DNA of 32,703 nucleotides, from positions 1 through 32,703 of the forward strand of contig JAHYJM010000015.1 of NCBI GenBank assembly GCA_019428945.1, written 5' to 3'. This stretch comes from Bacillota bacterium. Lineage in GTDB: Bacteria > Bacillota > Dethiobacteria > DTU022. The notes beneath the pieces were generated by a model. The model had not been told where the DNA came from. It ran no database searches and was given only the letters and a program-made list of their open reading frames with translations. Below, piece by piece: positions 7,099-9,979 of this stretch. Numbering within the stretch: the stretch's first letter is position 1; every line of letters begins with the position of its first letter. The translations under genes and the position numbers were made by a program.

Positions 7099-7566
7099 TT
7101 AAAATAGCTTGCTGAGATTTTCAACACACTGTTTTAATGTCTTATCTCGTTTCTTCTCCGACCAGACTACAATCTCAGTTCCGACGACATTTGCTCCCTT
7201 TGCCTCACAGGCTTTTTTCATGTGAGCTATCGCACCGGTTCCTCCGGCCTGTAGCAGTGGAAGCTGCTTTGTAACAAAGATTCCCACTTTCTTTCCGGTT
7301 AGAACCGGCAGCTTTTCCATGTAAGCTTTCATGACAGGATTTAATGAAAAAGCCTGTACAGGCGAACCAAAAATAACCGAATCATAACTACCATGATCTG
7401 GAACTATTTTCAATTCGAACTTTCCAGGTTGGGCTGGACTGTTACCGGAAATAACGATTTCATCTATTACGGCACTATGCCCGGAAGAAGACAGTTTTGC
7501 CTTAAGTTTTTCGGCAACGCTCCTGGTGTTGCCTGTCTGAGAGTAAATAATCAAACCGATATTCAT
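7099..7566 (-). CDS. Flavodoxin-like protein
   Basis: A 155-residue single-domain flavodoxin fold. The N-terminal strand runs into the FMN phosphate loop YSQTGNTRSVA (about 8-18). A second FMN-contacting loop is FGSPVQAFSLNP (about 67-78). Such proteins are small cytoplasmic one- or two-electron carriers. The gene overlaps the upstream NapH-like membrane ferredoxin by four bases (ATGA), so the two are translated together and probably form one electron-transfer module. The ATG start at 7566 has AAGGAGG-type purines upstream, inside the end of that gene. The specific partner and substrate cannot be told from sequence. Confidence 0.85.
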   Translation of the reverse strand: MNIGLIIYSQTGNTRSVAEKLKAKLSSSGHSAVIDEIVISGNSPAQPGKFELKIVPDHGSYDSVIFGSPVQAFSLNPVMKAYMEKLPVLTGKKVGIFVTKQLPLLQAGGTGAIAHMKKACEAKGANVVGTEIVVWSEKKRDKTLKQCVENLSKLF

Positions 7567-8300
7567 TTGCCATTCCTCCTTGAAAACGAGAATTTAATCA
7601 GCTCCCCGGGGCAGCTGTCGACGCATGAACCGCAAAGAATACATTCACTGTAATTTTCCAGACCTGATCTTACAAGGGAATTGACGTCAAGACTCATCGG
7701 GCATACTTTATTGCAGCGTTTACAATCATTACACAGATCAGGAGACGTTTTCAACCTAAGTGAAGGCCATAGTTTTAGCTTTTTTAATTTCAAGCCGATG
7801 ATCATGAAAGGAGCCATCCAGCAGACATAATGGCAGAAAGCCCTTTTACCTGCTGTTAGAGCCAAAACCAGAATTAAACCTGTAACAGAGTAGTAAACAA
7901 AATAATCACCAGGTTGTGATACGGAAATTCCACCGGGTATATGGTAAAAAGGATCAATATCAATAACTACTCCGACTCTTATAAACAGGGCTACTATTAG
8001 TATTAGCCAGGGAAGCCAGATTGCATATTTAATCATGTCGGCTTTCCCGCCCTTTGCCGGTTTCTGGTTAATGATGAAACAAGCTTCCTGCATACCTGCC
8101 GCAGGACAGAGCCATCCACAGAACAAACGTCCGAAAAAAAGAGATCCAATGAAAAGCAGTGCAAAAAAGAGTAGGCTTCCTGCAACTATACCTTCAGCAG
8201 CACCCATAACGATCAAAACAGGTGAGAGGTAATATATAGTCAGTGGAAAAAAAAGAAAAGATATAAAGATTATCGCTCTTCTCACCCGCTGTCTTTTCAT
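7563..8300 (-). CDS. NapH-like membrane 4Fe-4S ferredoxin
   Basis: A 245-residue integral membrane iron-sulfur protein of the NapH/CcoG-like group. Hydrophobic segments lie near 8-33, 37-58, 92-113 and 133-151. The family motif CGWLCP is at 61-66 and a second cysteine pair (FCHYVC) at 156/160. Two ferredoxin-type clusters follow: Cys190/193/196/200 and Cys220/223/226/230. Proteins of this type pass electrons between the membrane pool and soluble carriers. The start is ATG 8300, with AAAGGA upstream; a TTG eight codons earlier is possible. It is coupled to the flavodoxin by a 4-bp overlap. It lies next to mttB but is separated from it by a hairpin, so a link to methylamine metabolism is only a possibility. 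Confidence 0.85.
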   Translation of the reverse strand: MKRQRVRRAIIFISFLFFPLTIYYLSPVLIVMGAAEGIVAGSLLFFALLFIGSLFFGRLFCGWLCPAAGMQEACFIINQKPAKGGKADMIKYAIWLPWLILIVALFIRVGVVIDIDPFYHIPGGISVSQPGDYFVYYSVTGLILVLALTAGKRAFCHYVCWMAPFMIIGLKLKKLKLWPSLRLKTSPDLCNDCKRCNKVCPMSLDVNSLVRSGLENYSECILCGSCVDSCPGELIKFSFSRRNGK

Positions 8301-8342
8301 ACCTGAATCATTCCTTTGCAGCAATAAAAATCTAAAGCAATC

Positions 8343-8454: not shown

Positions 8455-9921
8455 TTAGGAGAATTCTTTCTCCGCTTCAGCTACTATATCCCGAAGTGTT
8501 TTTGCAACACTTTCAGACAGTGGTTCGGGTTTATGAGCAACCAGAACTTCCCTGGCGAATTCATTGCAGCGGGTATGCATATCTTTGCCACCGCTATCTT
8601 TCCAGACACCACGGGTATTGCGATCAATTAATTGACTCTGAGACTGATTCTTCTTAAAGTGATCGAAGGTATGCTGGTGGGTAACAAATTCACCGCCTAT
8701 TCCAACCTCCCTGATCACATCGACCGCCATTGATTGATCATTAACCGGTACTCCATCAAGCATACGCCTGATCATACGCACAAACTCATTATCGGCTACC
8801 AGCAGGCCAAAATCCATGGTCATTCCCAGCTCTACCATCCCAAGACCGTATATCATGTTGGCACCTGCCAACGCTGCGGTCATGAGGGTAAGAGTCCGTT
8901 CCTGGCCGGCCTGTAGATCGCCCAGCTTGCTGTCTGTCTATGAGCCGGCCAGGAAGCTTGGGATCCTGTAACTTCTGGCCATAGATGCAACACATGCGCC
9001 GAGCATAGCCATTTCCGGACAACCTACTGTAGCAGTTCCACGGCGCATTTCCATCATTGTTGTCGAGCTTCCGTATATATTGGGTGTTCCTCGCTTTGTC
9101 AGCTGGCTCAGGCAGATGCCGGCCAGAACCTCGGCGTTGTGGGTAACCAGGGTACCGGCCAGGGTTACCGGGCTGGTTCCACCGGCCAAAGCCATTGAGA
9201 GCACATTAACCGGAATTTCGTGTCTGGCATAGGCGATAATAGTTTCGCAGGTTTCCCGGGCCAGGGACAAGGGGCTCTGCGGGCAAACATCAGCCGAAAT
9301 AATCGGCCTCCTGCGCAGATTTTCCTTGCCGCCTGCCACCGCTGATGCCATTTCAATAATCAGTTCGGCAAGTCGAAAGTTAAAAGGTGCTGTACTGCAA
9401 TGTTTAGTGGTGTTTGAAATCATTGCTTCATAATTGTGAAGCGGAAAGATCGCCTGATTAACATCCCTGGGCACTACAGGGCAGTCAAGAATATCATATT
9501 GATCGAGGTAGTCAACCAGTTTTGATACATTCTCAGTGTCTTTCCTGGTTGATTCACGTATTGACCCGTCTTCAAGGTCTGCAACCTGTACACCACAACT
9601 GAAATTACAAAAACCAACACGCTTACCGCCCATAACAAAATCATGTTTCGGATCACGCGCCCCCAGCACAAAACTGGGTGGAGCAGAACGGATACAGTCT
9701 TCAACCACATGAGCCGGAAAGAAGACAGTACTGCTCGATTTATCAACGGTGCATCCGCCACCGTGATATATTTCCAGAGCATCATCGCTGTATACTTTAA
9801 TGCCGGTAAATTTTAAGACTTCGAGAGTAGCATCGTGGATGCGATCGATGGCCTCATCAGACATACAGCTAATGCCAAAGCCTTCGAACATGCTTTCACC
9901 CGCTGCTTTACTGCGTCGCAA
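8455..9921 (-). CDS. mttB: Trimethylamine:corrinoid methyltransferase MttB with in-frame amber (pyrrolysine) codon
   Basis: MttB moves a methyl group from trimethylamine to the Co(I) corrinoid of a partner protein. The frame encodes 327 residues, then TAG at 8940-8938, then 160 more residues, ending in TAA: 488 residues in all, the normal family size. The first part has MttB features such as IYGSSTTM and GCPEMAMLGA shortly before the amber codon. After TAG the frame continues TDSKLGDLQAGQE without any frameshift. The amber falls where Methanosarcina MttB carries pyrrolysine (near residue 334). The start is TTG 9921, eight bases after AAAGGAGG. It has its own promoter and terminator. No corrinoid protein, RamA or pyl gene is in the window, so function depends on genes elsewhere. 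A predictor that treats TAG only as stop would split this into two genes. Confidence 0.9.
8899..8955 (-). repeat. 12-bp perfect inverted repeat around the mttB amber codon
   Basis: TTCCTGGCCGGC (minus strand, 8955-8944) is exactly complementary to GCCGGCCAGGAA (8910-8899), with a 33-base loop. The TAG lies three bases inside the 5' side of the loop. The arms encode FLAG and AGQE. It may be a PYLIS-like RNA element or a by-product of codon choice; the role is untested. Confidence 0.7.
8938..8940 (-). other. Candidate pyrrolysine codon (UAG) in mttB
   Basis: In-frame amber codon 328 of mttB, flanked by LAGS before and TDSK after. The reading frame is uninterrupted on both sides and the family position fits pyrrolysine. 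Confidence 0.85.
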
Positions 9922-9979
9922 AATAAAAACCTCCTTTACCTTTTATTCAAGGGCTCAATTCTTCTTAAATACCGGAGCA

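Follow-up and report, generated by a model that had tools for sequence, protein, structure and literature searches.

The window analyzed here, a 32,703-nt stretch of DNA that makes up contig C144 of a 2.36-Mb assembly (98% complete, 170 contigs), carries on its reverse strand an mttB gene whose reading frame contains a single TAG (Table 1). In the original prediction, this frame was said to be open apart from that one codon, to be family-like on either side of it, and to have the TAG at the place where Methanosarcina MttB has pyrrolysine (Pyl). All three points hold. Translation of 9921–8455 (−) confirms an otherwise open frame that ends in TAA, with LAGS before and TDSK after codon 328. Read through the TAG, the protein gives one PF06253 match spanning both halves (residues 18–487, E 1e-104), which shows the flanks to be family-like and in the same frame, and it scores 674 bits against the NCBIfam equivalog TIGR02369 'trimeth_pyl' (cut-off 525). 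A full-length alignment with M. barkeri MttB (PDB 7xcl, E 2e-107) places the TAG exactly on the modified residue Pyl334 (numbering from PMC9842639).

Table 1. Coordinates of genes and features at the mttB locus, given as positions in the window.
Feature	Position	Strand	Remarks
mttB, Pyl-containing methylamine methyltransferase (predicted)	8455..9921	-	488 codons, TTG start, TAA stop
In-frame TAG, predicted pyrrolysine codon 328	8938..8940	-	same column as Pyl334 in M. barkeri MttB (PDB 7xcl)
Shine-Dalgarno AAAGGAGG	9930..9937	-	8 nt 5' of the TTG start (9921)
Ser-Cys codons at the Gly110-Thr111 position of M. barkeri MttB	9595..9600	-	Ser-Cys in ten of ten orthologues covering the site
Tyr codon, equivalent of catalytic Tyr364, kept	8848..8850	-	Tyr in every orthologue covering the site, window included
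Conserved RNA structure in coding sequence (predicted)	8792..8924	-	+16 to +148 nt, counted from the first UAG base; long imperfect stem topped by a hairpin
Apical hairpin (predicted)	8844..8881	-	5-bp outer helix 8881-8877/8848-8844; 6-bp inner helix 8872-8867/8862-8857
NapH-like membrane polyferredoxin	7563..8324	-	directly downstream of mttB
Flavodoxin/FMN-reductase-like protein	7099..7566	-	adjoins mttB in several relatives, 60-76% identity

The gene order recO–mttB–flavodoxin-like–glyQ–glyS recurs, whole or in part, in several relatives, and some mttB orthologues lie at other genomic places. The NapH-like polyferredoxin has no match beside mttB in the relatives compared. No relative was found on viral contigs. 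No corrinoid protein gene adjoins the window mttB, so that its partner would have to act in trans; other Pyl-MttB genes of the genome adjoin MtbB genes, BCCT transporters, and a sigma-54 activator. Elsewhere in the genome, a non-Pyl MttB gene (L028, contig C41:1717–3957, −) ends in a TAG that is immediately followed by the in-frame ATG of its corrinoid protein, and reading this TAG as Pyl would join the two proteins.

Conservation of the TAG and the pyrrolysine genes of the organism

Orthologues at 72–96% identity occur in the MAGs JAABTH (Bacillota S22.Bin020), VGTO (K_DeepCast_150m), UBA993, CSMAG_2485, and M55B129, and others in the same identity range in several 'Syntrophomonadaceae' CSSed MAGs. 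Soda-lake MAGs named Syntrophomonadaceae have been described as relatives of Dethiobacter (PMC6146748), and we infer that the window genome belongs to this Dethiobacter-related lineage. A sense codon in close relatives, which had been named as a sign of a recent nonsense mutation or sequencing error, is found in none of them: the TAG is kept in all 11 orthologues that cover the site, the window included. On its 3' side, dN/dS is 0.03–0.14 in all orthologue pairs in the same frame, indicating strong purifying selection, and on its 5' side it is ≤0.045 where dS is unsaturated.

The genome also encodes the machinery that such a codon calls for. On a single contig (C48), a corrinoid protein gene ends and is followed by pylT, pylSc, pylB, pylC, pylD, and pylSn, in that order. 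The tRNA-Pyl (L012, contig C48:340–411) has the anticodon CUA (CTA), and the scores of PylSc, PylSn, PylB, PylC, and PylD against their NCBIfam models all exceed the cut-offs (351/178, 114/51, 508/348, 470/248, and 239/150 bits, respectively). Genes and order, the split synthetase, and the CUA anticodon are those of the pylTScBCDSn cluster layout of bacteria (PMC3941956), from which the present cluster differs in lying directly behind a corrinoid protein gene and in having a pylD that ends in TAG. A lack of pyl genes, the other sign against Pyl named in the original prediction, is thus not seen in this genome. Together with the conservation of the TAG in 11 of 11 orthologues, the complete cluster supports the proposal that the organism, an uncultured anaerobic bacterium, uses the 22nd amino acid.

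Comparison of about 500 genomes in total ties the in-frame TAG to the pyl genes. Among 100 relatives, 16 have a TAG-containing MttB, and all 16 have PylD above the cut-off (PylD is present in 20). Across the phylum, PylB and TAG-MttB were each found in 25 of 399 genomes and coincide in 24, although these include related genomes and hence are not 24 independent cases; the two mismatches are incomplete MAGs (61% and 83% complete). The original description of Pyl-containing MttB as rare in bacteria is a weaker point of the prediction: with pylB in 25 of 399 sampled genomes, Pyl is no great rarity in this phylum.

In the genome itself, 24 MTTB matches were found, which include fragments at contig ends. 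One TAG inside the domain is carried by six MttB proteins, in every case at the Pyl334 column, and five MtbB proteins (PF09505) have a TAG at one shared site. The additional methylamine methyltransferases and partner proteins that the original prediction led us to look for were thus found in part: MtbB, corrinoid proteins (three above the TIGR02370 cut-off), and two RamA-type activators (PF14574) are present, but MtmB is absent from the genome. With the acetyl-CoA synthase subunit CdhC (PF03598), the corrinoid proteins and activators fit a feeding of methyl groups into the Wood–Ljungdahl pathway, as judged from gene content. A TAA and a TGA flagged as internal stops within two further MttB matches both lie 5' of likely start codons, and ten other TAG-interrupted candidates for Pyl proteins, outside Pyl-MttB and MtbB, were rejected, none having the TAG within a recognized domain; where both flanks of the TAG gave matches, these are adjacent genes in frame. 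The genome moreover holds a formate dehydrogenase alpha gene with an in-frame TGA (L064, contig C37:1538–4633; TIGR01553, 1121 bits) and a tRNA-Sec (L103, contig C87:290–383), and the organism thus appears to encode selenocysteine besides pyrrolysine, 22 amino acids in all.

The same-column TAG in six paralogues, its retention in orthologues, and the purifying selection downstream of it confirm that the observation goes beyond chance at the level of sequence comparison, and judged from the sequence, Pyl in this MttB is near certain. A true stop, be it a nonsense mutation, a sequencing error, or a split gene with two polypeptides, is very improbable even though the standard code calls the halves as two separate ORFs, since the orthologues that share the TAG come from different assemblies, the genome has the complete pyl cluster, and the downstream ATG at 8883 lacks a strong Shine-Dalgarno sequence and sits inside the catalytic barrel.

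As a Pyl enzyme, the window MttB belongs to an already-known type, and there is precedent for large MttB sets in which Pyl proteins are the minority: 'DCMF' (Ca. Formimonas warabiya) has 82 mttB genes, and 23 of its 96 methylamine methyltransferases contain Pyl (PMC6778437). The two genomes are alike in their MttB expansion with a Pyl minority, the pyl cluster, the Wood–Ljungdahl pathway, and selenocysteine, whereas the present one is of another lineage and has about 22 MttB genes, 11 Pyl enzymes, and no MtmB. At first look, 35–43 MttB candidates per genome were counted in G162 (2.1 Mb) and in G143 and G181 (both about 4 Mb), which for the small 2.1-Mb genome of G162 would be an extreme density.

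Pyl also seems to have been lost within the family. MttB proteins in which Ile or Leu occupies the Pyl site (G000, contig C61:9417; G028; G073) form a clade that nests with high support in the Pyl clade, and monophyly of all Pyl rows is rejected (p-AU 0.02, for a group named after the tree was seen), which suggests secondary loss. The Ile-bearing protein reaches 587 bits against the NCBIfam model for Pyl trimethylamine methyltransferases (cut-off 525), and it is accordingly named a Pyl enzyme. A parallel is provided by the functional non-Pyl MtmB homologue of methanogens (PMC13044021). The gene for the Ile-bearing MttB (L017, contig C61:9336–10853) shares its contig with a Pyl-MttB, a Pyl-MtbB, and a BCCT transporter. 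MttB genes without a TAG, whose products have 45–46% identity to the window protein, were seen in the Pyl-using G165 (C1:461022–462446) and the non-Pyl G124 (C72:34883–36307), where further loss of Pyl is possible.

RNA structure behind the UAG

UAG serves in this genome as both stop and, on the above evidence, Pyl codon. It ends 22% of 1086 ORFs selected from 1.53 Mb (65% of the genome) by a greedy pick of long ORFs instead of a gene caller, and this share is nearly independent of ORF length. Such usage, to which pylD itself contributes, agrees with the statement that bacteria handle Pyl by regulation and not by codon avoidance (PMC3941956). One Pyl-mttB gene (L017, contig C61:3729–5321) has two in-frame TAGs, the Pyl site and a terminator 163 codons later, and so offers a built-in natural control for the context of UAG. 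With roughly one ordinary gene in five ending in UAG, read-through in Pyl messages should be favored by some means.

A comparison of nine near-full-length orthologues revealed a peak of synonymous codon identity at codons 321–360 of the aligned protein, in which the UAG is codon 316. The excess is 0.57 in the strongest run of ten codons, compared with about 0.06 gene-wide, and none of 2000 permutation maxima, which correct for scanning along the gene, reaches this value (99th percentile 0.39). In RNAalifold analysis of 132-nt blocks, codons 321–364 are lowest by far (−47 versus a mean of −14), and their consensus fold has a z of −5.58 relative to conservation-matched column shuffles, with ten other blocks of the gene at −2.1 to +0.1. 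Single-sequence folding of +15 to +147 beats synonymous-codon shuffles at p ≤ 0.02 in 8 of the 11 sequences. The apical hairpin is formed by standard pairs in 121 of 121 cells, against 30–45% when the partners are slid, and its pair 8880:8845 (61:96) is A-U in six sequences and G-C in five, a pattern that requires at least two double changes on the tree; the two members of the sister paralogue type C38 differ by the same exchange. For the 43-pair structure as a whole, cells changed on both sides outnumber those in all 500 shuffles, a count that leans towards structure because the structure was derived from the same alignment. Taken together, the comparison supports an RNA structure that is conserved 3' of the UAG in the window orthologue group, a new element relative to an earlier study that found no sign of a common structure behind the mttB UAG (PMC3639795).

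Structured RNA behind a Pyl UAG within the coding sequence is also described by the PYLIS models (Rfam RF01982, RF02509, RF02510). The window has an RF02510 (PYLIS_3) match that starts at the TAG (57 bits versus 38), but several of the model pairs are non-standard in the window, the model also matches the Ile-bearing non-Pyl paralogue, and the first 100 nt behind the UAG, taken from the window alone, fold like shuffles (z 0.15). We therefore do not count this match as support and read it as a reflection of coding conservation. The structure supported in the window group is a different one and reaches to +148.

The apical hairpin is recognizable in the sister C38 type, for which a covariance model with structure scores mildly lower than a sequence-only model (51 versus 59 bits), and it is insignificant in the C61, C119, C50, and C12 types and in the f5 genomes. 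In the remaining groups the structured model falls far below the sequence-only one (e.g., 12 versus 47 bits), which indicates that the full 43-pair structure is group-specific. By score, the structured model matches more remote orthologues in G207, G143, and G181 (59–63% identity, TAG retained), where the hits (52–64 bits) lie as far behind the UAG as expected. Raised synonymous identity behind the UAG was otherwise found only in the C61-type Pyl-mttB group (28/39 versus 140/349; p 1.5e-4, as one of eleven pairs tested), whose predicted stem differs from that of the window group; the other Pyl-mttB groups do not have it. Since the structure was not found in several other Pyl-mttB groups of the same cell, it cannot be a general requirement for Pyl insertion; it might help choose between stop and read-through. 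For the archaeal PYLIS, a gain in Pyl protein yield has been reported, although the element is not essential (PMC3639795).

The structure could instead be unrelated to UAG decoding: a signal for mRNA stability, a ribosome pause that allows folding, a site for an RNA-binding protein, or a dyad in the DNA. Its absence from other Pyl-mttB groups of the genome is in keeping with such a role, as is the start of the stable apical hairpin about 60 nt 3' of the UAG; yet no second block of this kind exists in the gene, the outer stem sets in 16 nt 3' of the UAG, the C61-type group is also constrained behind the codon, and the compensatory changes speak against a pure DNA site. We regard a role apart from decoding as a serious contender whose chances fall somewhat short of even. 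That the signal is instead an artefact of the higher protein and codon conservation of this gene part is improbable: the region does code for a conserved active-site strand, and the unremarkable folding of the window's first 100 nt would suit this explanation, but the test used synonymous sites instead of amino acids, the shuffles preserved column conservation, and most single sequences fold better than their shuffles.

Active site, substrate, and proposed route

Among the closest known systems is M. barkeri MttB (PDB 7xcl/7xcm/7xcn; TIGR02369), which the window protein resembles in the Pyl site and in the equivalents of Tyr364, Met249, and Gly372, all kept in the window group. The window protein differs from the archaeal enzyme in being bacterial, in the Ser-Cys that replaces Gly110-Thr111, and in being encoded by a gene without an adjacent mttC and with structured RNA behind the UAG. 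Gly110 and Tyr364 were reported to be 100% conserved among 66 Pyl-MttB sequences, and the Gly110-Thr111 cis peptide contacts a water at the Pyl imine (PMC9842639). Compared with the reported full conservation of Gly110, the Ser-Cys site is a new variation and possibly one that goes with a changed substrate. Gly110 is uncertain as a family-defining residue, since the Pyl-MttB on contig C12 has Ala at this position (the remaining Pyl-MttB copies have Gly).

Trimethylamine (TMA) is a plausible substrate, but a less sure one given the Ser-Cys site and the absence of an adjacent corrinoid partner. The exchange weakens the identification as a TMA methyltransferase and leaves that as a Pyl enzyme with the MttB fold in place. 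A pocket changed by Gly110Ser and Thr111Cys to suit some other tertiary amine, with a different Pyl-MttB paralogue as the real TMA enzyme, would account for the presence of Ser-Cys in every member of the group, for six divergent Pyl-MttB proteins in one genome, and for the location of the window copy apart from corrinoid and transporter genes, when others adjoin BCCT transporters or MtbB. Against it stand the retained equivalents of Tyr364, Met249, Gly372, and Pyl334 and a score above the TMA equivalog cut-off, which the non-Pyl paralogue passes too. We consider this alternative possible, though on balance rather doubtful.

Our preferred explanation, in which we place high confidence, is that mttB encodes a full-length, Pyl-containing, corrinoid-dependent methyltransferase of the MttB family, with the following proposed route, amine substrate, and role of the RNA. 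Judging from the genes present, PylB, PylC, and PylD would make pyrrolysine from lysine, and the split synthetase PylSc + PylSn would charge tRNA-Pyl(CUA), which would then compete with release factor 1 to read the UAG at codon 328. The RNA structure that begins 16 nt 3' of this codon is the best candidate for raising the full-length share. In the finished enzyme, Pyl would bind a methylated amine, for which trimethylamine or another tertiary amine like it is the likeliest choice, and the methyl group would pass to a corrinoid protein acting in trans, kept reduced by RamA-type activators, and from there into the Wood–Ljungdahl pathway. A stronger version, in which the RNA is a true bacterial pyrrolysine-insertion element that raises read-through and the Ser-Cys enzyme has, in addition, moved to an amine other than trimethylamine, is put forward only tentatively.

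The question of how cells distinguish Pyl UAGs from stop UAGs is a long-standing one, and the context element proposed in the archaeal case proved dispensable though helpful (PMC3639795). If the stronger version is true, an RNA element would separate sense UAG from stop UAG in a genome where UAG ends a fifth of the genes. The structure occurs in bacteria that retain UAG among their stops, and one mttB group that combines constraint on synonymous sites with a consensus fold and compensatory changes makes the question directly testable. An uncultured, partly soda-lake family joins the users of pyrrolysine, one of its small genomes encoding 11 predicted Pyl enzymes as well as selenocysteine; for this genome, standard annotation would split all 11 Pyl genes and yet label a non-Pyl paralogue as a Pyl enzyme.
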